Assembly (NCBI GenBank): GCA_022239325.1
Contig: JAKOGP010000005.1
Location: forward strand, 124,001 to 188,000
DNA from: Flavobacteriaceae bacterium LSUCC0859
GTDB lineage: Bacteria; Bacteroidota; Bacteroidia; Flavobacteriales; Flavobacteriaceae
DNA: 64,000 bases
Reading direction: 5' to 3'
The notes beneath the pieces are model-generated. The model searched no databases, was not told the DNA's origin, and saw only the letters and a program-made list of their open reading frames with translations. A program made the translations under genes and the position numbers. Shown in pieces: positions 9,600-49,019 of this stretch (positions are counted from its first letter, which is position 1; each line of letters begins with the position of its first letter).

Positions 9600-10568
9600 A
9601 TGTATCACAAAAACAATAATAATGGACTATTGCTTGAGCAAATTTCGAATTATATTAAGCATGCGCCTTATAGAAGAATAAAAAGAAGTGGTTCACTAGG
9701 ATTATCTGATAATTCAGTTAGAAATCTAATGGTATTTGAGAAGCTGATTAAAGATTTCGAAAAGCACATAGGAAATCAAATTATGTTAAATGCTATAGAT
9801 CACATGTTAGTTAATAAGTTTAAAGAATGGCTTTTAACTGAAAAAAGCTATTCTTTAAATAATGCTGGACTTCAACTAAAGCTGTTAAAAATGATTTGTA
9901 AGGAGGCGGAAAGAATGAGTATTCCCGTTAATCCATATACAAGACATATTGAATCATTTACTCAAAAAAGTAGGGATAGAGTGCTTCAAACTATTTCTTT
10001 TGAAGAAATAAAAAAGATTAAATCCCTTAAAGAGTTACCCTCAACACTTGAAAATGCTAGAAAATGGATGCTAATTGGTTTATATATAGGTCAAAGAGTT
10101 TCTGATTTGTTAATTCTAAATCCTTTACAATTAAGATTTGTTGAGCATGGTGTTTATGTAGATATTACGCAACAAAAAACAGATAAAAATGTCACTATTG
10201 GAGTGGTAGATCCTGACGTAATTAAAATTTTGCAATACAAATTTCCTTATAATATTTCAGCACAATTATTTAATAGACAAATAAAACATGTATGTCAAAT
10301 TGCTGGAATAAATGAGATGGTAAGTGGTTATAAATTATGCTCTAAAACAAGAAGAAAAAAATTGGGTACACACCCAAAATCAAGCATAATTTCTTCTCAT
10401 GATTTAAGAAGATCGTTTGCTACGAATTACTTTGGGAAAATTGAAACGCCTATTCTTATGCAAATCACTGGTCACTCTAAAGAAAGTACGTTTTTAAGTT
10501 ATATTGGAACACAGGTAAACAAAGACACTTATGCAGATGCTTTTATGAAAGTTGCTGCTACTTTGTAG
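9600..10568 (+). CDS. Tyrosine recombinase (orphan paralog at edge of polysaccharide island)
   Basis: A 322-residue tyrosine recombinase. The N-terminal half (residues ~10-110) is an SAM-like core-binding domain. The C-terminal catalytic domain shows the Arg of YIGQRVSDLL, the HDLRRSFATN box, the GHSKESTFLSYIG segment with second His and nucleophilic Tyr. It is a clear paralog of the three recombinases at 41.5, 45.3 and 49.3 kb, sharing the KIETPILMxxTGHS stretch, but is the most diverged and AT-rich. Unlike them it has no adjacent lipoprotein cassette and no TGGTCTA core close by. It is the only plus-strand gene in the polysaccharide locus and its 3' end overlaps the next, convergent gene by 11 bases. 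It may be a remnant of island acquisition or act in trans on the lipoprotein sites. Confidence 0.9.
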   Translation: MYHKNNNNGLLLEQISNYIKHAPYRRIKRSGSLGLSDNSVRNLMVFEKLIKDFEKHIGNQIMLNAIDHMLVNKFKEWLLTEKSYSLNNAGLQLKLLKMICKEAERMSIPVNPYTRHIESFTQKSRDRVLQTISFEEIKKIKSLKELPSTLENARKWMLIGLYIGQRVSDLLILNPLQLRFVEHGVYVDITQQKTDKNVTIGVVDPDVIKILQYKFPYNISAQLFNRQIKHVCQIAGINEMVSGYKLCSKTRRKKLGTHPKSSIISSHDLRRSFATNYFGKIETPILMQITGHSKESTFLSYIGTQVNKDTYADAFMKVAATL

Positions 10569-36212: not shown

Positions 36213-36728
36213 TTACTCATTTTTATTAAATAAAATAAGCTCATCGGCGTTAAGCCTGTGACTAGCTGATAAAAAGAAAGCAACCTTTCTGTTTATGAGC
36301 TTTTCAAGCTTCTCCTCTAGGTTTGTAACGTAGGAGGTGTTTAAATCCTGGCCTACTACGATTATTTCAATTTTACCACTATCAATGCCTTTGGCGTAGT
36401 TGCCAATTAGAATAATCTGCTCCACGTCTCCCATTCGCTCTAAGACAACCTCTACTGTATCTTCAAGTCCAAGGTGTTTGAGAATGACTTTTTGCAATAC
36501 AGAGAACATGGGGTGCTTTGTGTTGGCTTTATATTGTATTTTATTGTTGGTTTTTTCTTTTTGAAGGTAACCTGCGTTGTGTAAGTGATTGAGTTCCTTA
36601 CGGATGGCGTTTGTAGATTCGCCCATCTCCGTAGCTAGACCGTTTAAATAACCTCGATTGGCCTGCGATACAAAGAATTTGATCAACAGGCGCAATCTTG
36701 TTTTTGAGGTTATCAATTCACCTAGCAC
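36213..36728 (-). CDS. Winged-helix regulator with nucleotidyltransferase-like C-terminus
   Basis: 171 residues starting at a GTG codon (MLGELITSKTRLRLL). Residues ~1-75 form an ArsR-like winged helix (RLRLLIKFFVSQANRGYLNGLATEMGE with the recognition region NAIRKELNHLHNAGYL). The C-terminal half (IILIGNYAKGIDSGKIEIIVVGQDLN) resembles a MNT-type nucleotidyltransferase fold, though the usual G-S...D-x-D residues are replaced (GNYAKGIDSGKIEI). Regulators of this build head polysaccharide loci in Flavobacteriia. It is the first gene of the long minus-strand run and probably controls it, binding the palindromes just upstream of its own start. Confidence 0.78.
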   Translation of the reverse strand: MLGELITSKTRLRLLIKFFVSQANRGYLNGLATEMGESTNAIRKELNHLHNAGYLQKEKTNNKIQYKANTKHPMFSVLQKVILKHLGLEDTVEVVLERMGDVEQIILIGNYAKGIDSGKIEIIVVGQDLNTSYVTNLEEKLEKLINRKVAFFLSASHRLNADELILFNKNE

Positions 36729-36740
36729 TTACTAATAATT

Positions 36741-36775
36741 TGAATTACTTATTTTCAAGTAATAAAAGTACTTAA
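36741..36775 (-). promoter_or_regulatory. Palindromic operator upstream of the HTH regulator gene
   Basis: Between the GTG start and the next gene lies a perfect dyad, ATTACTT (36744-36750) and AAGTAAT (36757-36763), followed at once by the 8-base palindrome AAGTACTT (36766-36773). The ACTT/AAGT half-site thus recurs four times in 30 bases, fitting a dimeric winged-helix protein. Autoregulation of the HTH gene, and with it the polysaccharide operon, is inferred. No clear TAnnTTTG promoter element is seen within it. Confidence 0.5.
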
Positions 36776-36795
36776 TCTTATGTTTTTAAGCAAAT

Positions 36796-37689
36796 TTAAT
36801 GGGCTTTTCTTCTGTAAAATTGATCTTGAAATTTACCGCCCTCTAGAGGTACATTTCTAAATATAAGTGTTTCTAGTGAATCACTGTAAAAAACTGGAAA
36901 TGATAAAATTGGTTTTGAAGGTTTGCTTTTGAAAAAAAAATTAAATGTGTCTTTAGTGATGGTAAATAAATATTCGTCACCAGAATTTGACTCTACTAAA
37001 TTTTTTGATTTAAAGATGTAATGAAGTGTTGTATCTCTTATGATTTGTTTTGGAAAATTATACACTCTTTCCCAGTGGCCAGTAAGTTCCTTAGGCGAAA
37101 TAGATCGTTGGTCTTCATACTCAGTAACCAAGAAACTCAACTTAACTTTATTAAAAGATTCGTAGAACCTTTGAAAATAGTTAGTATTAGCTTTTAATTT
37201 GCTTGGTAGATAGTTATATGCATTTATCAATGAAGTTGTATCTCTAACCTTTTCAAGTACGTCTAAATATGTATTGTAATGATCCAGATTTTTAGGCCAG
37301 CCTTCAAAAGCGCTTTTAGCAAAAGGGAGCGCATCTGTAAACTCATTTTGATAAATTAATACTTTTGCTTTTAAATAATCTCCGATTCTAACATGAGGAT
37401 TAATTTCAATCGCTTTAGATATAAAATTGTCTGTTTCTGACAATCTCCCCTCATTTAAAAGATAATTTACCCTATAAACATCCAAAGGCATTGCAGTAAT
37501 AGTAACGTTAGGTATACTTGGCAGCAAGGCATTAATCGTGTCAAATTTAAGCTGCATTCCACTTGGATTTTTTAAGTCACTTAATATTTTATTTTGAATA
37601 ACGTGAGAGCTAAACACTTGATAATTTATAAATATAGAAGCAAGCAGGAATAGATAAATAAGGAAATATAAAACTTTCTTAATTTTCAT
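36796..37689 (-). CDS. Membrane-anchored TPR-like protein paired with the O-antigen ligase
   Basis: A 297-residue protein with one N-terminal membrane helix (VLYFLIYLFLLASIFINYQVF) and an outward helical domain. Segments such as VDVYRVNYLLNEGRLSE-like, FISKAIEINPHVRIGDYLKA and VLIYQNEFTDALPFAKSAFE read as TPR-type helix pairs (residues ~80-150). The C-terminal third is beta-rich. It overlaps the ligase gene by 11 bases. Many Wzy_C proteins carry fused periplasmic TPRs; here the TPR part may be a separate partner. No firm family. Confidence 0.6.
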   Translation of the reverse strand: MKIKKVLYFLIYLFLLASIFINYQVFSSHVIQNKILSDLKNPSGMQLKFDTINALLPSIPNVTITAMPLDVYRVNYLLNEGRLSETDNFISKAIEINPHVRIGDYLKAKVLIYQNEFTDALPFAKSAFEGWPKNLDHYNTYLDVLEKVRDTTSLINAYNYLPSKLKANTNYFQRFYESFNKVKLSFLVTEYEDQRSISPKELTGHWERVYNFPKQIIRDTTLHYIFKSKNLVESNSGDEYLFTITKDTFNFFFKSKPSKPILSFPVFYSDSLETLIFRNVPLEGGKFQDQFYRRKAH

Positions 37690-38932
37690 TAGAAAAAGCT
37701 TGAATGTTAATAATGAGAGAGAGAATTACCATAAACATAACTTGCATTATTGGTCGTTCAAAAGGAAAGTTTAAAGACGCATCTATTAAATATGCTGAAA
37801 GTGAACAAAATAGGACTACTACATTAAAAGGTTGAGATTTAATGTAAAGCAACAATCTTTTGTAGGAATAAAAAAAGATCAACAAAAATAAAATTCCACC
37901 AACTAGACCAAGTTCAGTTGTGTACTCAAGAAAATCATTGTGGGCATGAAATGGTACTAAATAGTTTTCACCCAAAGAACCCCAATACATAGAAGATTCG
38001 ACTTTCCAATTTCCCAAACCAGCTCCAATGAAAGGGTTATTATATATGTAATCTAAGGCATTTGACCACAATTCAAACCTGTTACTACTAGATTCATTAG
38101 TAACTCTGATCTGTGAGACTTTAGTAATTGCAGACTTATTTGAAGCAGGTAGAATATTTAATGATAAAAAATATGATAAAAAGGTTGGAATAAAAATGAA
38201 GAAAAAAAGAAATAAATACCTGATTTTCTTTGTGATATGGAGCTTAAAAATTAAATAAAAGAATAATATAATTAATATTAAAAGTAGTGATAATAATGCT
38301 GCTCTTGAGTTAATTAGAAACAAAACAAGTGTTGGCATTAAAACAAAAAAAGAATAAAGTATTCTAGGGATTATTTTTTTTGTTTGGACAATCAGATGAA
38401 AAATAAAAGGAATTTTTACTACAATTGAGGCTGTAGTAATATTTCGATTGCCCGTAACGCCCTTAAAAGCATCTACATTTAAAGTGTCAATATTAAAAAT
38501 AAGCATTCCATTATCAATAAACTCAATTATTAGTGGACTCAAAGAAAAAAAAGATTCAATAATACATGATAAAGCAATAAGAATTGAGACTACATAAAAC
38601 TTAAGTTGAAAATTTTTAAACAAACTAGACAAAACAAAAAGGCCAACCAAGACATTAATTAGTCTAAAAAAATCATGAGCCCAAAGGGTCAAGTTTATTG
38701 CGTAAAGAAAAGAGAAAAAGGAAAATATAGAAAAAAAAGAAAAAACACTTAGCACTGAGCTTTTAACTTCAAAAACTGGCAATTTAAAGAATAAAAAACT
38801 TGTTAAAAGTATTGTATTCAATATGCTAAGATACAACCATTGTGGTCCCGCAAAATCGACCGCACCAAAAAGAGGTATTAAAAAAACAAAAAGATAAAGG
38901 CCTAAAAGTGAATAAGGGAAAAATGTTTTCAT
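37679..38932 (-). CDS. O-antigen ligase/polymerase (Wzy_C family)
   Basis: A 417-residue polytopic membrane protein with about ten helices. The periplasmic loop has the family signature: NRFELWSNALDYIYNNPFIG, GAGLGNWKVES and FHAHNDFLEYTTELGLVGG. It either joins glycan to lipid A-core or protein, or polymerises repeat units; WaaL and Wzy cannot be separated from sequence. Its ATG directly follows the T-run of the terminator behind the lipoprotein cassette on the same strand, leaving no room for a separate promoter or ribosome site. Expression may therefore depend on readthrough or an internal promoter. Confidence 0.88.
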   Translation of the reverse strand: MKTFFPYSLLGLYLFVFLIPLFGAVDFAGPQWLYLSILNTILLTSFLFFKLPVFEVKSSVLSVFSFFSIFSFFSFLYAINLTLWAHDFFRLINVLVGLFVLSSLFKNFQLKFYVVSILIALSCIIESFFSLSPLIIEFIDNGMLIFNIDTLNVDAFKGVTGNRNITTASIVVKIPFIFHLIVQTKKIIPRILYSFFVLMPTLVLFLINSRAALLSLLLILIILFFYLIFKLHITKKIRYLFLFFFIFIPTFLSYFLSLNILPASNKSAITKVSQIRVTNESSSNRFELWSNALDYIYNNPFIGAGLGNWKVESSMYWGSLGENYLVPFHAHNDFLEYTTELGLVGGILFLLIFFYSYKRLLLYIKSQPFNVVVLFCSLSAYLIDASLNFPFERPIMQVMFMVILSLIINIQAFSNEN

Positions 38933-38961
38933 AAAAAAAAGCCCCTCAAAAGGAGGGGCTT
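38933..38961 (-). terminator. Rho-independent terminator after the left cassette
   Basis: On the minus strand a 9-bp stem, AAGCCCCTC with GAGGGGCTT (38939-38947 and 38953-38961), with a short loop is followed by eight T. It lies 24 bases after the stop of the left cassette. The T-run abuts the ATG of the O-antigen ligase gene, an unusual arrangement. Confidence 0.88.
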
Positions 38962-38984
38962 AAATATAATAAATTCAATACTTA

Positions 38985-41432
38985 TTACGAAGCTAACTTA
39001 GAGCTAAAGTTTACACTTTTTCTAGCAATAGAATCAGCATTTGTTTGACCAGTTCCATCTTTAGCATCTACCCATTTCTCGTCATCTCCAACTAGATTAC
39101 CGGCACCTGTATTAATACCACTAGCAGTAAGAATTGTAGCAGTACCGTTTGTAAAAGTAACTGTTTTTGCTCCTGCTACACCAGCTGCAGTAGATTTGAA
39201 AGTAACGTAAGCAGAACCTACATCTCCAGTATTGTCACCTAACACAATAGAAGCTGAATTAAAACCTAGGGATGTTGTAGAAGCTACTGAACCACTTAAG
39301 GCATAAACATCTAAATCAAAAGTAAAGACTGATTTTTGAGAACCTTTTGCTAGTGAAGTAAAGTCTAATTTAGATAAACCAGTTCCTGTACCAGTAGCAA
39401 CAGAATAATATTTAGAAGCAACACCAGTTCCAGCATCTAAAGCAGTTTTGAATGCAGTAGCAATTTCTGCAATAGAAGAAGCAGAACCTGAAGTAACAGA
39501 AACCGCAGCTCCATCTCCTGCATCTAAAACATAAACACCTGATACATTGGTAAGTCCTTTAAACTCGATAGAAGCTGTATTAACACCTTTACCGTAACCA
39601 TCAATAGCTACACCAACACTTGAAAGTTGAGCCGCTGTACCTGCATCTGCAGCCCAGTTTGCAACATCATAGTATAAACTTAAACCTGTACTTGGTATGA
39701 TTGATACAATATCGTCACCAACTTGAATTCCATTATTAGAATCTGTACCATCAAGTCCTGTAATTAACATTTCTCTTACCTGACTTACACCACCAACAGC
39801 GTTTGATGCTTCATAATCTACATTAGCAATTACACCAGCAGCAGTATCAGCACCAGAAACAGAATCAGTATCGTAAATTAAGTCTGTTGCAGCAACTGTT
39901 AAGTCTTCTACACCAGCAGCAGTAATTGTTTTTCCAATATTATCTGCTTTTACAACTACAGAACCTGCAGTTCCAATCTGACCAGCTGCATCAGCAATAA
40001 AGTCAGACAAAGGTTCGAAGTCTGCAGAAGTAATTACGTGAGCAACAACTGGAGATGTTCCAGGTAGTTGAATAGATTCGATAGTTAAGTCATTAGATTG
40101 AATATCTACTACAGCAGCGGTAGCAGCACCAACGTCATTTAAAGCAGCAAAACTTATTGTATCTAATTCACTGTTGTTCTTTACAATCAATTTGTGAAGA
40201 CCATCAACATTATCAGCAGTAAGGGAAGTTAAATCAGAATTTCCACTAACTTCTAATGAACCTTTAGCAGCTGATGTATATGGAATATCCAATGTAGACA
40301 GATCAGTTCCAGCAACCTTAACATTTAAAGCTGTGCCATCAAAAGTTAATGAAGTTAAATCAGAACCTGAAGATATAGTTACATTAGAAAAAGTACCACC
40401 TAAAATCAAAGTCTCTAATCTAGAAGAACTAGAAGTAACATTTAAATGCTGTGCAGTTGTTACAGAAGTTTTTGTTGAAGCTGCAGCAACAATATGAACA
40501 GAAGTTGCTCTGTCAAATACTGTATCTATAGCAATTGTAGCTCCTGCTGCTTTACCTGGATTTACAGAAGGCAAAACAACAGTGTCTGCTTTCGCAAAAG
40601 AAGATGAAGCAGATAAAGATTCCCATTTAGGTAAGTCTACTGAAGTAAGTGCATCTGCCACAATATCACCTTTAGCAAAAACAGGGGCAATAAGAGTAGA
40701 TGCATTAACTATTGTTAAAGACTCAAATGTAGTAGCAGCAGTACCGTCTACTTTAGTTAGGTTCGTGAAAGCAGAAAGATTTACTGAAGCATTGTCTGCA
40801 GTAGTAATAGAAATAGCAGAATCATAAGCAGTTAATGCAGATAAATCTACACTTGTTGCTTTTGCAAAACTTAGAGAACCTAATCCTGAAGTTGCATGAG
40901 TGAGTGCCGGTAAAGATACAGATGTAGTAAAGTCATCCCCAGATAAACTCAAAGCGCCTGTAGATTTTAATGCTGGCAATGAAATATCACCAGATTGGTT
41001 TATGGTAACGTTTTTAGCTCCGTTCAACTGAGTGAATACTCCTTGTGTAGTTGAACTTGCAGTAGCTGTATAAGTAACAGTTCCAGTAACAGAAACCATT
41101 TTAGCCATTAATGAAGCAACATCAGCGTCATTCATTGTAGAAGTATGAGTGATGTGAACTCCTCCGTTAATGATTGAAACCTTATCACCTAAAGCAAGAG
41201 CAAAGTCTAATTCTGACTGACTTGAAACTGTAAGAATAGATCCTGTTGGAGCATATATGTTATTTTGTGCTAGCAACTCGTCTAAATCTACTTGTTGAGC
41301 AGCCAAAGCAGTAGCTAAAGCAGCTACTTCGTCTGCAGTTGCAGCATTTGCCAATGCAGCTTGTAACTCGGCTACAGAAGCAGCTAAAGTTTCAAGTGAC
41401 GACTCTAGACCAGGGTCAGACCCAAAACACAA
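38985..41432 (-). CDS. Silent C-terminal cassette L of the switchable lipoprotein
   Basis: An 815-codon open frame without promoter, ATG start or signal peptide; the first in-frame start-like codon is a TTG at 41432. After the recombination core (encoding GLES at residues 8-11) come an Ala-rich coiled coil (AASVAELQAALANAATADEV), a conserved region ending in DKVSIINGGVHITHTS, then an LRR/solenoid-like set of short repeats (LTSLTADNVDGLHKLIVKNN) and a ~300-residue C-terminal domain. The first ~115 residues match the expressed protein at 42973-45150 and cassette R; the rest diverges. Joined to the expressed 5' end by inversion it would give an ~884-residue lipoprotein in frame. It could alternatively be a broken copy, but the intact frame over 2.4 kb argues against decay. 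Confidence 0.8.
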   Translation of the reverse strand: MCFGSDPGLESSLETLAASVAELQAALANAATADEVAALATALAAQQVDLDELLAQNNIYAPTGSILTVSSQSELDFALALGDKVSIINGGVHITHTSTMNDADVASLMAKMVSVTGTVTYTATASSTTQGVFTQLNGAKNVTINQSGDISLPALKSTGALSLSGDDFTTSVSLPALTHATSGLGSLSFAKATSVDLSALTAYDSAISITTADNASVNLSAFTNLTKVDGTAATTFESLTIVNASTLIAPVFAKGDIVADALTSVDLPKWESLSASSSFAKADTVVLPSVNPGKAAGATIAIDTVFDRATSVHIVAAASTKTSVTTAQHLNVTSSSSRLETLILGGTFSNVTISSGSDLTSLTFDGTALNVKVAGTDLSTLDIPYTSAAKGSLEVSGNSDLTSLTADNVDGLHKLIVKNNSELDTISFAALNDVGAATAAVVDIQSNDLTIESIQLPGTSPVVAHVITSADFEPLSDFIADAAGQIGTAGSVVVKADNIGKTITAAGVEDLTVAATDLIYDTDSVSGADTAAGVIANVDYEASNAVGGVSQVREMLITGLDGTDSNNGIQVGDDIVSIIPSTGLSLYYDVANWAADAGTAAQLSSVGVAIDGYGKGVNTASIEFKGLTNVSGVYVLDAGDGAAVSVTSGSASSIAEIATAFKTALDAGTGVASKYYSVATGTGTGLSKLDFTSLAKGSQKSVFTFDLDVYALSGSVASTTSLGFNSASIVLGDNTGDVGSAYVTFKSTAAGVAGAKTVTFTNGTATILTASGINTGAGNLVGDDEKWVDAKDGTGQTNADSIARKSVNFSSKLAS
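41398..41420 (-). other. Recombination site L (minus orientation)
   Basis: On the minus strand: TCTGACCC, core TGGTCTA (41406-41412), GAGTCGTC. The two arms match at only 4 of 8 positions as an inverted repeat. The core has the same reading phase (xxT GGT CTA) as in sites M and R. The left arm instead pairs with the right arm of site M, evidence of a past exchange between the two sites. Confidence 0.75.
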
Positions 41433-41446
41433 ACAATAAACTTCAC

Positions 41447-41482
41447 AAAAAAAGCCTGTAATGCTATGTATTACAGGCTTTT
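41447..41482 (-). terminator. Terminator between recombinase 1 and silent cassette L
   Basis: An 11-bp perfect stem AAGCCTGTAAT/ATTACAGGCTT (41452-41462, 41470-41480) with a 7-base loop and, on the minus strand, seven T. It stops recombinase transcripts before they reach cassette L, keeping that cassette silent. The A/T flanks also allow bidirectional action. It travels with the invertible segment. Confidence 0.88.
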
Positions 41483-41501: not shown

Positions 41502-42515
41502 TTATTGTGCTACTGCCCTGGCATAACCTTCGCTAAAACTTTGTTTTTCTTGTATTTTGAGCACCCCAGACATGAAAATATCGGCGTAGGCGTCCCTGTT
41601 GTTGTTTCTTCCAATATAACTTAAAAAAGTACTCTCCCTTGAGTGGCCAGTCATGTTCATGAGAATAGGGGTTTCAATCTTACCAAAGAAGTTGGTGGCA
41701 AAGGACCTACGTAAGTCATGGGAAGAAATTACCTGGTATTTGGGGAACAAGCCAATTTCTTTTCTCTTGCTTTCTGGATTGTATTGGTAGCCCTTAACTT
41801 CTTCATTTATCCCTGCCATTTCTAGGACCTCCTTCATATATCTATTAAAACATCTATCGCTTATACGCCTGGGAAAATCCAATTTAATAATTTCCACAGC
41901 TAAGGGGTTTATAACTCCTACAGTTACCGCAGTTCGTGTCTTTTTTTGTAAAATGTCTACATATACCCCACCATTAGCTGCGGTTCTAATATCTAACTTG
42001 GTCAATGCCAGTAAATCCGAGACCCTTTGGCCCAACCAAAAGCCTATAACAATCCATTTTCTGGTGTTTTCAAGACGTTCAGAAGGCAGTCTAATTTGCT
42101 GAATTTTTTCGAGATCTGAAAAGGTGAGTATGTTAATGAGCTTATCTTGCCTAGATTGTGCAAAACCGGACACATAATTGGTGTAGGGGTGTACCGCAAT
42201 ATCATTTTTCTTGGCGTCTACACAAATAGTTTTCAGGGTTCCCATAAGCCTACCTGCATGATTTTCAGAATAATTTTTATCCTGCAAAAGCCACTGTTTA
42301 AAACGATCTACGGTTTTTTTATTGAGGTCTGAAAAATAGAGGGTACCTGAAAAATCAATTTCAAATTCTTTGAAAACAATTCTAAAATTGGTGTAGTTGG
42401 CTATAGCACGTGAAGACAAGCCCACTCTACCGCCACTCATACTTCTAAATTTAGCGTTGGCGATAAAATGGTCTAAGTAAGAAACTATAGACGTATTCAC
42501 AAGGTTTGTACTCAT
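41502..42515 (-). CDS. Tyrosine recombinase 1 of the lipoprotein switch
   Basis: About 337 residues from ATG at 42515; a GTG at 42527 is possible but the ATG aligns with its paralogs. N-terminal core-binding domain (NYTNFRIVFKEFEIDFSGT, FKQWLLQDKNYSENHAG), then the catalytic domain with GFWLGQRVSDLLAL (first Arg), SSHDLRRSFATNFFGKIE (His-x-x-Arg) and MTGHSRESTFLSYIG (His and Tyr). All catalytic residues are present, so it should be active. It lies inside the predicted invertible segment, transcribed toward site L and away from the lipoprotein promoter. It is the best candidate for the invertase. Confidence 0.93.
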   Translation of the reverse strand: MSTNLVNTSIVSYLDHFIANAKFRSMSGGRVGLSSRAIANYTNFRIVFKEFEIDFSGTLYFSDLNKKTVDRFKQWLLQDKNYSENHAGRLMGTLKTICVDAKKNDIAVHPYTNYVSGFAQSRQDKLINILTFSDLEKIQQIRLPSERLENTRKWIVIGFWLGQRVSDLLALTKLDIRTAANGGVYVDILQKKTRTAVTVGVINPLAVEIIKLDFPRRISDRCFNRYMKEVLEMAGINEEVKGYQYNPESKRKEIGLFPKYQVISSHDLRRSFATNFFGKIETPILMNMTGHSRESTFLSYIGRNNNRDAYADIFMSGVLKIQEKQSFSEGYARAVAQ

Positions 42516-42527
42516 AAGCTGGGGCAC

Positions 42528-42972
42528 AGCTTAGGCAAAATAAGTAGCAAGATGTATTGGGGATTGCAAATGTAAGAAAAAAACTACAAAACTTTACAAA
42601 AAAGTGCTCATAATGCTAATTCACAACAATTTGACATCAATTATTGCATAATATTTTTAGTATGATAAAAAAAAATGTAGCTTTGAGTATTAATAGGGTA
42701 TACAGTCCCTTTTTGGAAATTTATACAGCGAAACTACTGTTTCTTTAGCCGATGGATATTAACCACTCGTCTATAGATATACGGTATTTCGTCGAAAAAG
42801 TGAAAACGACCAATGCTTAGTTTCACACTTTTGCACGGTATACATGTTCCCAAATTGTACCTGTATTCGAATTTAACTAATGACTATGAACCAAAAACGC
42901 ATTACTAATCAAATTTTAACACAAGAACTTTCTTTAAATTCAACACTTAATTACTTATTTAACATTTCAAAC
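42528..42972. promoter_or_regulatory. Divergent control region between recombinase 1 and the lipoprotein
   Basis: No gene, but dense structure. A TAGCTTTG element (42678-42685, plus strand) is a candidate -7 box for the lipoprotein, with only a weak -33 match, and implies a ~285-base leader. Dyads: GAAAC-tact-GTTTC (near 42730) and AAAGTG/CACTTT arms (42797-42802, 42826-42831). ACGGTAT is repeated at 42781 and 42835. A short in-frame extension upstream of the lipoprotein (from 42880) has no signal peptide and is taken as leader. Regulator or recombinase-helper binding is inferred. Confidence 0.5.
42567..42600 (-). promoter_or_regulatory. Promoter of recombinase 1
   Basis: On the minus strand the perfect Bacteroidota -7 element TACATTTG (42567-42574) is preceded, after 22 bases, by TTTG (42597-42600), within the spacing reported for Flavobacteriia. 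It lies about 50 bases before the ATG at 42515. A CTTTACAAA motif (42592-42600) shared with the recombinase at 9600 overlaps the -33 end. Confidence 0.6.
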
Positions 42973-45150
42973 ATGAAAAAACTATTTTCTTACTTATTAA
43001 TTTCGTCCATGGTGGTTTTGTCATCATGTACAAACTACGACGATCAATTTGATGATCTGAACTCACAGATAAATAGCTTGAAAGGCCAGATTGAAGGTTT
43101 TTCTTCTTTATCTTCAGGATTAACTGCTTTACAAGGAACTGTAGCTTCTTTACAGTCTGCTGTAGCTAACATTCCTGTAACTCCTGCAACTGACATCTCT
43201 GGTCTAGAGTCAGACCTAGATGCATTAAGCTCTGGATTAGAGGCAGTTACAACTAAGCTTGCAGAATTAGAAGCCGCTTTGGCTAACGCTTCTACAGCTG
43301 CTGAGGTTGCAGCTTTGCAAACCGCTTTAACAGCTGCACAGGCAGATATTACTACCATCTTAGAAAATAATAATGTTTATACAGGTGATTTAAGCATCAC
43401 TAATACTGCTGAATTAGCTTTTGCCACTGCCCTAGGTGACAAAGTAGCTATCATTAACGGTAATGTTGTGGTAACTGTAGACAGTGATGACTTAGACGCT
43501 GAAGCAGTTTCTGCTGTAACTTCAAAAATAGCTTCTGTAGTTGGAAGTGTAACAGTTACTACAGACGCTTCTCTAGATTTTTCTGCCCTAACTGCAGTAA
43601 GTTCCTCTTATTCAGTTACTGGTCATGATGTAGATGACGCTGCTTTAGCTTCTGCTAACGGAGTTACTTTAAACTACAATGGTGCATATACACAACCTGC
43701 TTTAGTAACAGCTGGTGCCGTAACCATCACAAACAAAACATCTACGGTAACAGGTACAATTGCTGTAGACTTTTCAGGATTAACCTCAGGATCTGTTAAC
43801 AGCGGTACTTTATCTTTAGATTCTGCTGCTTCTGTTAAAATTGGATCTGGAGCTGCTATTGTTTCTTTAACTGCGCCAAAAGCCTTAGAGGTTGAATTGC
43901 ACAATGCTGGAACTCTAGCTTCTTTAACTATAGACACAGCTTCTGCAACATCTGTTGTAGTAAAAGCTACAAAAGTAACTGGAGCCACTACGGTAACAGC
44001 TACCTCTGCAGTATCTTTTCCAAGTGCAACTGATGTAGCTGCATTAACTGTTTCTGCTGGTTCTTTTTCTGCACCTTTATTAACAGATGCTGCTGCAACT
44101 ACAGTTAACGCAGACGAAATTACTTTAACAGCACTTGAAACTTTAAGCGCTGCAGCTTCTTTTGACACAGAAGCCCTAAGTGTTCCTGCTTTAAAAACAG
44201 CAGCTGCTTTAACAATAAGCACTTTAGACGCTGTTGCTCTTCCTGCTTTAGAAACTGCTGGTGTTATTACTGCAGACAATGCAGTAACTTTTAATGCTGG
44301 GGTTCTCGTAACTTCTGCTGCTATCAATACCGCTTCTGCTACTACTGTAGTATTAGGTTCTGCTACTGCTTCACATATTGCAGACTTAGCTACTGTAAAA
44401 GAATTGACATTAAACAACCAAGCTACTGCTTTTGCTGTTGGAACTGCAGCGGAACTTACTAGCTTAACTATAAATGGAAAATCTGCATCTACAACTAGTG
44501 TAACTGTTGGAAACGCTGCTAAATTAGCTACTATTTCATTAACAGGTAAGTTTGCTTCTGCTAGCGTAGAAGGTGCTTTAGCTAAATTAGAGTCTTTAAG
44601 CACAGCAGGTACTATTGAATCTTTAACTGTATCTGGAACAACTAAATTGGCTGCCGTAGATTTCGCTCACACTTCTGCAGATGTGTCTACCCTTAAAGTG
44701 GTAAACAATGCTAAATTAGGATCACTTACAACAAGTACAGACTATCTTGCAGAATTAACAGTTACAGGTAACAATGTATTAACTGCTGCAGATTTCTCTT
44801 CATATGCCAATGTAATAAACGATACTGCTGCAACTGCTTCTGTAACCATAGCAATAGGGACAAACTCACTAACTGCTACATTTACTCCTGCAACAGCTGC
44901 AAGTGGTGCTACTGCTTTTGCAGAAGCTACTATTGTTTCTGCCTCTTTAGGAAGTTTATCTGCTTACATCCAAGATGTATATGATGTAGACCCAGCTATG
45001 ATCTCATTATCATTAGATCCTGCTGCTACTACTAAAGGAACTTCTGTAGCTGCGTTTAGTACTCAAAACGCAACAGCAGTAACAGGTTCTGATTTACCAG
45101 CCGGTGCAATTGCAAGTGAAGAAGCCAATGCGCTTATCACTGCCAACTAA
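42973..45150 (+). CDS. Expressed switchable surface lipoprotein (constant 5' end + cassette M)
   Basis: 725 residues. MKKLFSYLLISSMVVLSSC is a complete lipoprotein signal; acidic residues right after the Cys (TNYDDQFDD) resemble the surface-export signal of Bacteroidota lipoproteins. A heptad coiled coil (LNSQINSLKGQIEGFSSL) follows to residue 76, where the GLES core begins. Beyond it comes cassette M: a second coiled coil (LAELEAALANASTAAEV), the conserved NNNVYTGDLS...ALGDKVAIINGN block, and an Ala/Thr/Val-rich solenoid of short repeats to the end. It lacks the extra C-terminal domain of cassettes L and R and any T9SS sorting motif. Start chosen at 42973 for the signal peptide; the frame opens earlier at 42880. 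The ligand is unknown; probably an adhesin or antigen. Confidence 0.85.
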   Translation: MKKLFSYLLISSMVVLSSCTNYDDQFDDLNSQINSLKGQIEGFSSLSSGLTALQGTVASLQSAVANIPVTPATDISGLESDLDALSSGLEAVTTKLAELEAALANASTAAEVAALQTALTAAQADITTILENNNVYTGDLSITNTAELAFATALGDKVAIINGNVVVTVDSDDLDAEAVSAVTSKIASVVGSVTVTTDASLDFSALTAVSSSYSVTGHDVDDAALASANGVTLNYNGAYTQPALVTAGAVTITNKTSTVTGTIAVDFSGLTSGSVNSGTLSLDSAASVKIGSGAAIVSLTAPKALEVELHNAGTLASLTIDTASATSVVVKATKVTGATTVTATSAVSFPSATDVAALTVSAGSFSAPLLTDAAATTVNADEITLTALETLSAAASFDTEALSVPALKTAAALTISTLDAVALPALETAGVITADNAVTFNAGVLVTSAAINTASATTVVLGSATASHIADLATVKELTLNNQATAFAVGTAAELTSLTINGKSASTTSVTVGNAAKLATISLTGKFASASVEGALAKLESLSTAGTIESLTVSGTTKLAAVDFAHTSADVSTLKVVNNAKLGSLTTSTDYLAELTVTGNNVLTAADFSSYANVINDTAATASVTIAIGTNSLTATFTPATAASGATAFAEATIVSASLGSLSAYIQDVYDVDPAMISLSLDPAATTKGTSVAAFSTQNATAVTGSDLPAGAIASEEANALITAN
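43192..43214 (+). other. Recombination site M (plus orientation)
   Basis: GACATCTC, core TGGTCTA (43200-43206), GAGTCAGA. As an inverted repeat the arms match at only 3 of 8 positions. The left arm pairs 6/8 with the right arm of site L and the right arm pairs 7/8 (9/10 when extended to GGTCTGACYC) with the left arm of site L. It lies in the coding frame at codons 74-81, encoding D-I-S-G-L-E-S-D. Confidence 0.78.
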
Positions 45151-45194
45151 GAGTAATTAAGTTTGAATGAAACACTCTGTGTAGTGTATATAAA

Positions 45195-45224
45195 AGACCC
45201 TCCAATTGGAGGGTCTTTTTTTTT
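45195..45224 (+). terminator. Terminator after cassette M
   Basis: AGACCCTCC-AATT-GGAGGGTCT (45195-45216), a perfect 9-bp stem followed by nine T. It ends the lipoprotein transcript 45 bases after the stop and separates it from recombinase 2. Confidence 0.93.
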
Positions 45225-45337: not shown

Positions 45338-46312
45338 ATGCAAACAATTAAAAAACAAGTTAGCATAGCATCTTATATGGCTGTTTTTATAGAAAATGCT
45401 CAATACCAAGTGGTAAAGGGCGGGCAGTTAGGACTCAGTAAAAGAGCGCTTTCCAACTATAAAAACTTTGCCAAAATAATGGCTGCTTATGACACTTATC
45501 AAAAGAAAAAATGGTGCTTTAATGAGATAAGTGCGCAGAGCGTACATGCGTTTAAGCAATATCTGTTAGAAAAGAAAAAATACAGTCTAAACCACGCTGG
45601 ACGGATCATGGGCTTTTTAAAAACCGTTTGTAAAACGGCAGCCAATTACCAGATAGACACTGGAAACGCTACCCATCTCATTGCAGGATTTTCAAAACCT
45701 CAGCAAGATAAAATAATTCACACCATCAGTTTTGAGGAATACCAGCGGATTATAGCCATAGATTACAGAAAGAATGACCGCCTAAACAACGCCAGAAAAT
45801 GGCTCATTATAGGTTTTTGGATAGGGCAACGTGTTTCTGATTTACTAAAGCTTAGCCCAGACCAATGTAGACCTGCCCCTAATGGAGGTATCTATATAGA
45901 TGTAGTACAACAAAAAACAAAAAAACGAGTAACTCTTGGAGTCATAGACCCCCTAGCCCTCAAAATTATAAACCAACAATTTCCAAGAACCATTGGAGCA
46001 CGATGCTTTAACAGATATATGAAAGAAATCTGCAAAGACGCTGGACTCACTCAAATGGTCCAAGGTTACAAGATGAACCCAGAGACCAAAAGAAAAGAAG
46101 AGGGTGTATTTCCCAAATACGAGCTGCTCTCTTCACATGACCTCAGACGTTCCTTTGCCACTAACTTCTTTGGGAAAATAGAAACTCCAGTACTCATGCA
46201 AATGACAGGGCACTCCAGAGAAAGTACTTTTTTGTCTTATATAGGAGTTGGAGAAAATAAAGACCTCTATGCCAACAGTTTTATGGAAGGTTTAAAAGAA
46301 ATAAAAATTTAA
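45338..46312 (+). CDS. Tyrosine recombinase 2 of the lipoprotein switch
   Basis: 324 residues, same family as recombinase 1: core-binding part NYKNFAKIMAAYDTYQKKK and FKQYLLEKKKYSLNHAG, catalytic GFWIGQRVSDLLKL, SSHDLRRSFATNFFGKIE and MTGHSRESTFLSYIG, with Arg, His-x-x-Arg, His and Tyr intact. It lies between cassette M and site R, transcribed toward cassette R, repeating the recombinase-site-cassette order seen at site L. Only AT-rich weak hairpins, not a strong terminator, separate it from site R. Upstream, ATTCCCAAATCTAATAAA (from 45310) resembles a stretch before recombinase 3 (from 49166) and may be a shared promoter or binding element. Confidence 0.93.
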   Translation: MQTIKKQVSIASYMAVFIENAQYQVVKGGQLGLSKRALSNYKNFAKIMAAYDTYQKKKWCFNEISAQSVHAFKQYLLEKKKYSLNHAGRIMGFLKTVCKTAANYQIDTGNATHLIAGFSKPQQDKIIHTISFEEYQRIIAIDYRKNDRLNNARKWLIIGFWIGQRVSDLLKLSPDQCRPAPNGGIYIDVVQQKTKKRVTLGVIDPLALKIINQQFPRTIGARCFNRYMKEICKDAGLTQMVQGYKMNPETKRKEEGVFPKYELLSSHDLRRSFATNFFGKIETPVLMQMTGHSRESTFLSYIGVGENKDLYANSFMEGLKEIKI

Positions 46313-46385: not shown

Positions 46386-46408
46386 CCGGATTCTGGTCTA
46401 GAATCCGG
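46386..46408 (+). other. Recombination site R (plus orientation, fully symmetric)
   Basis: CCGGATTC, core TGGTCTA (46394-46400), GAATCCGG: 8/8 matching inverted arms around the 7-bp core, a textbook tyrosine-recombinase site. It is a direct repeat of site M and inverted relative to site L. Its perfect symmetry suggests that its two halves have not been exchanged with the others in this genome. Confidence 0.8.
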
Positions 46409-46418
46409 ACAGGCTGCA

Positions 46419-49019
46419 TTGACCGCTGCACTAGAAGCTTTAGCTACTAGATTAACTACATTAGAGACTGATTTAGCTGGTGCTGCAACCGCTGCTGAAG
46501 TTACTGCTTTACAAACAGCTTTAGCTGCTGCACAAGCAGACTTAACTGAGTTATTAGCTTCTAATAATGTATATTCTAATGATCTTACTATTAATTCTCA
46601 GGCTACTTTAGATGTAGCTAAGAGTTTAGGAGGGAAGTTAGCTATCATTAACGGAGGTGTAACCATTACTCAATCCTCTTCTATGGATGCAGAAGATTTG
46701 CAAGCTGTGGTAGATGTAATGGTGACAGTTACAGGAAATGTAACTTACACTATGGCTGTTAACGGTTCTACTCAGGCAGTATTTAATAATTTAACATCAG
46801 TTGGTGGTCTTAATCTAGATGTATCTGGAGCTATTAACTTCCCTGAATTACAGAATGCTGGCGCTGTTGTATTAGATGACACCCACAAAAACTACGTAAC
46901 TTCTGTAGAGTTTCCAAAGCTTTCTAAAGTTACAAGCTTTAAAACTGGGTCAGATGCTAACACTATTAAATTCTCAAAAGCTACCGCTATCACTTTATCA
47001 GAATTAGCTAATTATGAAAACGCAAGTTTGACTTTGGAAGGTAAATTAGATTTTACTTTAGACTTAGCAAAATTGACTTCAAAAACAGCTGCTGGTGTTA
47101 AAAACCCAATTAATTTAACAATCAAAGGAGCAAAAGAAGTGACTTTACCAGAGTTTACAAGTGGTAAAGTTATTGCAGATTCTTCTGAAAAAGTAGTATT
47201 GGCTAAATATGAGGGTAACATAGGAGATAGCTTTGCTAAAACTGAATACCTTCATTTAGAAGTATACGAAGAAGACTATACTTCAAGCTCAACTTCTTTG
47301 GATACTTTAATATTTGGTGGTGTTGCTGAAAGTTCAGATACAGATAGTGGTGATCACCCAACATTAGATTTAGATGGTGCGTCTGGCTTAACTAACTTAA
47401 CTGTAAAAGGAAAGCTCTATAAACTTTATCTTAAAGGAAATACTTCATTAACAGATGTAGACGTAACAGGAGCTATAAATAGTGTAACTGTTGAAGGTGC
47501 TACTTCTCTTGAGGCTTTAGTTTTAGGTCATACAGGTGCAGCAATTGCAGCTGATAAAGATGAGGCAGATTTAACAATCAAAGGTAATACTGAACTTGCC
47601 TCTTTAACTGTAGACGCATTAGTTAATGCTGCAGATCTTACTATTACTGGCAACACTTCTTTAGAGACTATTAGTTTTGCTAAATTAGCTGGAATTGGTG
47701 TAGACGCAGTACCAGTTGTAGATGTTAGCAATAACAACTTAACCGCATCTGTGGTTGAAAAAGATACCAACGGTTCTACTGATGCTGTTACAGCTGCAGG
47801 AGGTACTGGGTCCATTACTACTACTTCTGGAATGGATGATTTAAAAGCATATTTAGGTGCTGCTGCAACAAAAGCTGCTGCAACTGCTGGTGCTTCTGTT
47901 TATGCTTCATTTGACACTGTAGAAACTTATATTGACACTGCAGATGCACAAACTGGACCATTCAACTTTACGGTAGGTGCTAAAGGTCAAGGGAATAATG
48001 TATATACTGAGATTGTATATATAAGTCCTGCAGAAGGGGCTGATAAGTTTCCAAACAGAACTTCTTATATAATTAAAGATTTAATGGATGGTAGTGATGA
48101 CAAAATTACTATTGCTGCAAATGGTGGGACTGTAAGTTATACAAAAGATGCCACTACAGAAACAGCAAGTGAATTTGTTTCTAGAGTGGTAGATACTGAT
48201 GCACTTTCAGCAAATAGTGTTGGTCTTACAAAACTTACTGGAATTAACAAACATCTTGATTTAACATTTACAACAGATGATGCCACTGCTGCACAGGGTG
48301 CATACACTGCAACTTTACTAATTGGATCTACTGGTTATTCCTCTGCGGTAGTAACCCCAACTTCTTATACAAACGGAAAAGTAGAAATCTTAGTTGCAGC
48401 ATCTTCAGGGAATGCAGCATCTGACGATGCAACAGCTTTTGCTACAGCCTTTAATGACAAAACAAAAGTTAAAGTATACACCTATACTGCTAGTGGGACA
48501 TACACAACAACAACTGTTGATTATACATCAATGTATAAAGCAACTGCTGCAGGTGGAATTGTGACGCTTCAACCATTAAAAACTGTTTACACTTCTGCAA
48601 CTGCAACAGAAACAGTTATTGATTTAACCTCAGGTGCAAGAAATTTACCAGTCTACACACTCTTCACAGATTTAGTTCCTGCAACAAGTACACCAAATAC
48701 AACAAATGTACCAACAATTGCTACTTCAATTGCTAAATCAGATTTTGGAATTACAGTGACAGATGAATTATATGGGACTTCTAATACATTTATTGCAAGT
48801 GGAAGTGAGGCTGTTTCAATGGCAGATGGAGCTACAACCACTATTGCAACAGCTGTAATAGCAAAAATAAATGAGGATTCTACTTATGATAGTACAGACG
48901 GAACTAGAGAATACCATAAAACTGGAGTTCCTTATTCAAATACACTTACAAGAGTAGAAGAAGTTGATAAAGACAATGGTGTTTCTGCCAACAAGAAAAA
49001 CATCACTTCGTGGCTATAA
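46419..49019 (+). CDS. Silent C-terminal cassette R of the switchable lipoprotein
   Basis: An 866-codon frame whose first start-like codon is TTG at 46419; in frame it opens at 46353 and runs through site R (S-G-L-E-S), with no ATG, signal peptide or visible promoter. Order: Ala-rich coiled coil (LEALATRLTTLETDLAGA), the conserved block SNNVYSNDLT...LGGKLAIINGGVTIT, LRR/solenoid repeats (LTSLTVDALVNAADLTITGN-like) to about residue 460, then a ~400-residue Thr-rich C-terminal region in two or three domains. Fusion to the expressed 5' end would give ~950 residues in frame. It is the longest of the three alternatives. Confidence 0.8.
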   Translation: MTAALEALATRLTTLETDLAGAATAAEVTALQTALAAAQADLTELLASNNVYSNDLTINSQATLDVAKSLGGKLAIINGGVTITQSSSMDAEDLQAVVDVMVTVTGNVTYTMAVNGSTQAVFNNLTSVGGLNLDVSGAINFPELQNAGAVVLDDTHKNYVTSVEFPKLSKVTSFKTGSDANTIKFSKATAITLSELANYENASLTLEGKLDFTLDLAKLTSKTAAGVKNPINLTIKGAKEVTLPEFTSGKVIADSSEKVVLAKYEGNIGDSFAKTEYLHLEVYEEDYTSSSTSLDTLIFGGVAESSDTDSGDHPTLDLDGASGLTNLTVKGKLYKLYLKGNTSLTDVDVTGAINSVTVEGATSLEALVLGHTGAAIAADKDEADLTIKGNTELASLTVDALVNAADLTITGNTSLETISFAKLAGIGVDAVPVVDVSNNNLTASVVEKDTNGSTDAVTAAGGTGSITTTSGMDDLKAYLGAAATKAAATAGASVYASFDTVETYIDTADAQTGPFNFTVGAKGQGNNVYTEIVYISPAEGADKFPNRTSYIIKDLMDGSDDKITIAANGGTVSYTKDATTETASEFVSRVVDTDALSANSVGLTKLTGINKHLDLTFTTDDATAAQGAYTATLLIGSTGYSSAVVTPTSYTNGKVEILVAASSGNAASDDATAFATAFNDKTKVKVYTYTASGTYTTTTVDYTSMYKATAAGGIVTLQPLKTVYTSATATETVIDLTSGARNLPVYTLFTDLVPATSTPNTTNVPTIATSIAKSDFGITVTDELYGTSNTFIASGSEAVSMADGATTTIATAVIAKINEDSTYDSTDGTREYHKTGVPYSNTLTRVEEVDKDNGVSANKKNITSWL

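Follow-up and report, generated by a model that had tools for sequence, protein, structure and literature searches.

In Campylobacter fetus, the sap locus carries one promoter that is inverted among silent S-layer cassettes, which are joined via a conserved 5' part of the gene; to our knowledge, no glycan ligase lies behind a sap cassette. Shufflons (e.g. R64 with Rci, and invertible loci of Bacteroides) comprise tyrosine recombinases beside short sites, inverted or direct, at which gene tails are exchanged. In S-layer or pilin operons of the Caulobacter rsaA-rsaDE type, an abundant surface protein is followed by a leaky terminator and by accessory genes that are expressed at low output by readthrough. 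The BT1926-BT1927 locus of Bacteroides thetaiotaomicron is described in two reports as a phase-variable S-layer lipoprotein with an invertible promoter (PMC12548429, PMC12578637). Here we analyse a stretch of 64,000 nucleotides (hereafter "the window", G000:C8:124001-188000) within the 2.17-Mb genome of LSUCC0859, a member of the flavobacterial family, in which the gene of a Wzy_C-type glycan ligase starts directly at the terminator of cassette L, one of three alternative tails of a surface lipoprotein gene. As in shufflons, tyrosine recombinases are encoded beside a short crossover site at which gene tails would be swapped; as in sap, a single promoter would be shifted by inversion among cassettes sharing a 5' part; and as in rsaA-rsaDE, the surface protein comes first, followed by a terminator and by accessory genes. 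We lean towards the reading that the ligase gene and the overlapping gene of a TPR-like protein lie at the distal end of an operon attenuated by a terminator, where they are expressed at low output, supplied by readthrough and connected to the promoter only in the L state, i.e. when cassette L is fed. Four features meet at or next to the junction:

38985..41413, minus strand: cassette L, a silent tail without signal peptide, which starts at the crossover site and adjoins the ligase gene
38933..38961, minus strand: intrinsic terminator of cassette L (hairpin 38961-38939), its U-tract ending 0 nucleotides before the ligase ATG
37679..38932, minus strand: Wzy_C protein (O-antigen ligase / O-oligosaccharyltransferase / polymerase type) of 417 amino acids, matching PF04932 at 7.5e-21
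36796..37689, minus strand: gene of a TPR-like protein (so called by eye, without Pfam match), overlapping the ligase gene by 11 nucleotides

The original prediction had placed the stop codon of cassette L, 24 bases, a strong hairpin, eight T and the ligase ATG in immediate succession, and direct reading of the minus strand bears this out: the stop codon TAA (38987-38985) is followed by 24 nucleotides, the hairpin, eight T (the last at 38933) and the ATG at 38932-38930. The hairpin (stem AGCCCCTC-CTTTT-GAGGGGCT) has nine pairs, six of them GC, and a loop of five, and at -16.5 kcal/mol within the 52-nucleotide gap (z -3.65) its stability is equalled in one of 200 shuffles; under the terminator-calling rule, any terminator appeared in one of 300 dinucleotide shuffles of the gap. 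By the sequence criterion of a GC-rich stem-loop with an immediate T run, this is an intrinsic (Rho-independent) terminator.

We compared the window with nine further loci in which the surface gene and the ligase gene are adjacent (G001, L051, L052, L053, L054, L073, L074, L075 and L083). All ten have a hairpin and a U-tract in the gap, which measures 52-110 nucleotides; the stem sequences differ, and 0-3 of 300 shuffles per gap gave a terminator. From the end of the U-tract to the start codon there are 0 nucleotides in the window and L051, 10 in L053, 11 in L052 and L073, 12 in G001, 13 in L054, 29 in L074 and 30 in L075 and L083, the starts of the L074 and L075 ligases being the first GTG or TTG picked by script and possibly wrong. 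Pairwise identities among the ligases are 27-42%, so that it is the layout and not the sequence that has been kept, and the retention of the junction despite such divergence argues that it is used. The ligase frame is intact wherever the contig holds the whole gene (that of L054 is cut by the contig end). Two of these loci come from metagenome-assembled genomes labelled Balneolaceae (L052) and Pelagibacteraceae (L053), yet both bear the flavobacterial locus, and their contigs are probably mis-binned.

The hairpin might instead serve mainly as a 3'-end stabiliser or processing site, a long cassette-ligase RNA being trimmed into abundant cassette mRNA and scarce ligase mRNA. Its presence in ten of ten loci agrees with this, and the same output ratio would result, but every hairpin is followed by the T run typical of intrinsic termination, and the other two cassettes of the window, M and R, end in a hairpin with a T-rich tail although no ligase lies behind them; we regard such a role as improbable.

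It had further been predicted that no TAnnTTTG element lies near the end of cassette L, and this holds, for the exact motif, over the last 150 nucleotides of the cassette together with the gap. The closest exact copy upstream of the ligase, at 39324-39317, is without a TTG at -33. The hairpin region is overlapped by two promoter candidates with one mismatch, TTG-N21-TCCTTTTG at 38954-38947 and TATATTTA at 38968-38961, of which the better is no better than shuffles (39% of them reach its score). The ligase could thus have a weak promoter of its own, in the end of cassette L or overlapping the terminator, in which case its expression would not depend on orientation and the short gap would reflect genome compactness. 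Besides the two candidates, the degeneracy of the -7 motif in this genome and the existence of similar compact junctions elsewhere in the contig favour this explanation, but in most of the ten loci shuffles score at least as high as the best promoter-like sequence before the ligase, not a base separates the U-tract from the ATG in the window and L051, and the locus alignments reveal no conserved promoter footprint before the ligase, whereas the cassette promoter-leader and the element before a winged-helix-like (helix-turn-helix, HTH) gene further downstream each have one. We therefore consider a separate ligase promoter unlikely.

With one site in both orientations and alternative tails in frame, the neighbouring DNA is by sequence an inversion system of the shufflon type, which consists of the following parts:

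41401..41413, minus strand: crossover site of L (CTGGTCTAGAGTC), from the 13-base-pair repeat search
41454..41478, minus strand: int1 terminator (hairpin), separating the recombinase gene from silent L
41502..42527, minus strand: tyrosine recombinase int1, divergent from the promoter (PF13102 and PF00589)
42678..42972, plus strand: -7 element TAGCTTTG (42678-42685) of the expressed cassette together with its conserved leader, from the alignment of seven loci
42973..45150, plus strand: cassette M, the surface lipoprotein expressed in this assembly (MKKLFSYLLISSMVVLSSC...)
43199..43211, plus strand: crossover site inside expressed gene M, whose junction with an L-type tail is seen in G011
45192..45219, plus strand: terminator of cassette M
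45338..46312, plus strand: tyrosine recombinase int2, downstream of M, 52% identical to int1
46393..46405, plus strand: crossover site of silent cassette R, from the 13-base-pair repeat search
46404..49019, plus strand: cassette R, a silent tail that shares 70% identity with its silent counterpart in L052
49273..50280, plus strand: tyrosine recombinase int3, downstream of R, 47% identical to int1, with a weak match to a XerA-type model

The window holds three copies of the 13-base-pair site CTGGTCTAGARTC, where 0.09 would be expected: silent L (minus strand) and silent R (plus strand) each begin at one, and the third lies inside expressed M (plus strand); a 14-base form with a leading T, common to M and R and not to L, has no further copy in the genome. 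M has a lipoprotein signal peptide with its Cys, as read from the translation, and L and R start at the site. When the 5' part of M is joined to the tail of L, M or R, the frame is kept at all three joints, and of the six possible end pairings four retain all DNA, two of them feeding M, one L and one R. The promoter is directed at the ligase only when L is fed. This assembly feeds M, and the ligase consequently sits behind int1, the int1 terminator and silent L. The three nearby tyrosine recombinases are candidate switch enzymes. A perfect palindrome, CCGGATTCT-GGTCT-AGAATCCGG at 46386-46408, encloses the R site and is likely to be a recombinase binding site.

The promoter-leader exists as a single copy in its own genome (search with the 119-nucleotide core). 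TAnnTTTG stands at the cassette promoter in seven of seven loci and is followed by a leader of about 280 nucleotides (42690-42972, plus strand, in the window), the core of which (42723-42841) has a mean column identity of 93% in the seven loci. This core is foldable, without any pair changed on both sides, and an Rfam search of the leader gave nothing at E <= 1; one copy of the core was found in three of 12 genomes of the genus and in one of 299 genomes of the family, namely its own. In all seven loci an in-frame stretch (42880-42972 in the window, MNQKRITNQIL...NYLFNISN) lies upstream of the signal peptide; it may extend the N-terminus, encode a leader peptide or simply belong to the leader.

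The junction expected of the L-fed state is found in a related genome, not of the same strain: the promoter segment of G011 aligns to 42640-43211 of the window (87.5%) and then runs into 41413-41335 (92%), the two aligned segments overlapping exactly at the 13-base-pair site. Using the N-terminus of the cassette as a query, we found seven named loci, among which five are intact and have the same signal peptide (L051, L052, L053, L054 and L056, the last being identical with G001, which is the single-cell genome MS024-3C, PMC2668756); this set leaves out L055 (the cut G011 contig) and L057 (Prevotella, 29%). In all five intact shufflon-type relatives, MS024-3C included, the promoter faces the ligase, the expressed gene immediately preceding the Wzy_C gene in the same direction, with the TPR and HTH genes next where the contig reaches; the window is the exception. 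The opposite strand of L052 carries an R-type cassette that is silent and whose site is inverted, so that a flip would remove the promoter from the ligase there too. A search of 397 family genomes, again with the N-terminus of the surface gene, matched ten, among them that of the window itself; in the others there were 11 places, three of which are cut by contig ends (G226:C33, G335, G148) and four of which have the ligase directly next (G197, G092, G300, G076).

Taken together, the conserved junction, the single promoter, the L-type junction and the five of five relatives whose promoter faces the ligase make readthrough, in the L state only, the best reading. The conserved junction (in all ten loci), the missing ligase footprint, the single promoter and the junction in G011 also lend partial support to the dependence of the ligase on readthrough from cassette L as it had originally been predicted. 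The first gene of the operon would be a (presumably abundant) surface lipoprotein resembling leucine-rich repeat (LRR) proteins, under a strong promoter, and a leaky terminator directly before the ligase start would let few polymerases through, so that the surface protein would be made in quantity and the ligase sparingly. In the lineage of the window, this first gene would have been turned into a three-cassette inversion system, in which the 13-base-pair site allows a single segment of promoter, leader and signal peptide to be linked with L, M or R and only the L state would direct the cassette promoter at the ligase. With M fed (as in the assembly) or R fed, the ligase would lie behind silent L without the cassette promoter, and its expression should drop. 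Lineages without silent partners on the contig would keep the ligase coupled to the surface gene, and in those of the window and L052 inversion could detach it. We infer that readthrough is the main supply of ligase and varies with orientation, and likewise the strength of the promoter and the amount of readthrough. Since the ligase start abuts the terminator and relatives keep this layout, flipping the surface protein probably also turns the ligase up or down.

The ligase passes the gathering score of PF04932 (74.9 bits vs 31.7) and is thus a member of the Wzy_C superfamily; NCBIfam TfpM (2e-6) and glyco_rpt_poly (2.8e-5), both below cut-off, and WaaL (7tpg, 7.1e-5) are matched more weakly, and it may be a lipid ligase, a protein ligase/transferase or a polymerase. 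Apart from the own gene, no ligase homologs were found at E <= 1e-60 among 397 family genomes. The pair of ligase and TPR genes recurs in G001, L051, L052, L053 and L073, and in L074, L075 and L083 the two are fused into one protein of 770-786 amino acids. L074 (8436-14528, reverse-complemented) and L075 (10885-16934) each encode two Wzy_C-like proteins of about 775 amino acids inside some 6 kb, the first adjoining the surface gene; they are perhaps a polymerase and a ligase. The own genome has a second Wzy_C protein (G000:C4:610511-611737, within a frame of 782 amino acids), and long-frame proteins similar to it are present in six other genomes of the genus. This paralog and the strength of the hairpin would suit a scheme in which termination is complete, the ligase of the window is essentially silent and glycan ligation is left to the fused paralog; its intact frame and its adjacency to the surface gene across genera are not expected of a silent gene, however, and we deem this scheme very improbable.

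Two further features bear on how far the proposed operon extends:

36729..36781, minus strand: conserved element upstream of the HTH gene, from the alignment of five loci, where DNA conservation ends
36213..36728, minus strand: winged-helix-like (HTH) protein of 171 amino acids (HTH_36 at 0.0044, below cut-off), 93% identical in G001

The HTH gene begins 67 nucleotides past the TPR gene and stands first in a long glycan cluster of the same strand. The block upstream of it is conserved in five of five loci and contains a conserved near-palindrome, TTACTTGAAATTAAGTAA, a possible operator; the rest of the glycan cluster probably has a separate promoter/operator here. The set of dependent genes is therefore narrower than had been claimed: it would include the ligase gene and the overlapping TPR-like gene, presumed to be on the same transcript, and not the HTH gene and those after it. 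At the far end of the cluster lies one more recombinase:

9600-10568, plus strand: fourth related recombinase, 45% identical to int1

The cluster of MS024-3C likewise has a homolog of this recombinase at its distant end, and a single TAG lies in frame within the matching stretch.

Several observations weigh against readthrough as the main supply. Strong hairpins with seven to nine T may terminate almost completely, and the paralog may keep a basal function or cover for the ligase. The G011 contig stops soon after the junction, before any ligase. The ten loci are not ten independent events, as L051 and L054 come from a single bin and L074 and L075 from a single genus, and in four of the eight assessable distant homologs (G226:C8, G226:C27, G385 and G308) the ligase does not adjoin the surface gene; in G308 (L082) a convergent gene separates the two. 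Outside the window, at G000:C8:93675, the T-run of the terminator of a cold-shock-like gene (by eye) touches the ATG of the next gene, so that this layout is not special to the switch. The exact TAnnTTTG motif precedes 16 of 40 divergent-gap genes vs 11 of 56 operon-internal starts in this contig and has little power, and the margin over shuffles is small even for the conserved cassette promoters. The motif argument is accordingly weak, and we dropped the absence of TAnnTTTG as proof that no promoter exists; the arguments from spacing and conservation are stronger.

A structure model of cassette L has a mean predicted local distance difference test score (pLDDT) of 55.8, its N-terminal half being LRR/L-domain-like at best; fold comparison with the PDB returned nothing at E <= 0.001, and a PDB sequence search with the cassette had no match. 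The protein O-glycosylation motif of Bacteroidota, D[ST][ALIVMT], was counted in eight usable cassette sequences (wR left out) and was enriched in none of them (0-7 found, shuffle means 5.2-9.1), which gives no backing to the idea that the cassettes are glycosylated directly at such sites.

A broader proposition is that inversion picks the surface lipoprotein and, since the L position alone would lead through a leaky terminator into the ligase operon, also sets the amount of glycan that is ligated or polymerised, making protein antigen and glycan phenotype a linked pair; this is more tentative, and we would put it a little short of an even chance. If true, one recombination event would alter both coats of a marine bacterium, protein and sugar, with relevance to phage resistance and grazing. 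Independently of the switch, the pair of surface lipoprotein gene and Wzy_C gene with a terminator between them is conserved in several genera, which points to joint action of enzyme and surface protein, e.g. in glycan anchoring or glycosylation of the layer, and makes the pair a concrete candidate among the little-known flavobacterial ligases and transferases. Searches of an open-licence library listed no paper whose title or abstract opening describes a switch that connects or disconnects a glycan ligase, and they yielded nothing direct on leaky terminators after major surface-protein genes.

Compared with the known shufflons, the window is distinguished by three diverged recombinase genes, placed next to a cassette or the promoter in each case, and by the CTGGTCTAGARTC core of its site. 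It differs from Campylobacter fetus sap in phylum and in the proteins involved, and from rsaA-rsaDE in that an inversion of DNA can separate the first gene from the accessory ones. The likeness to BT1926-BT1927, as that locus is described in the two reports, is one of layout: in both, the expression of a large Bacteroidota surface lipoprotein is set by an invertible promoter, and an outer-membrane barrel gene adjoins, here of the PorP/SprF type (match below the model cut-off). The lipoprotein of the window may be a BT1927-like S-layer protein, which its signal peptide with Cys would fit, with a putative lattice. From the same descriptions, the promoter of BT1927 turns one gene on or off, whereas that of the window serves three cassettes joined in frame, one of which leads into the ligase.

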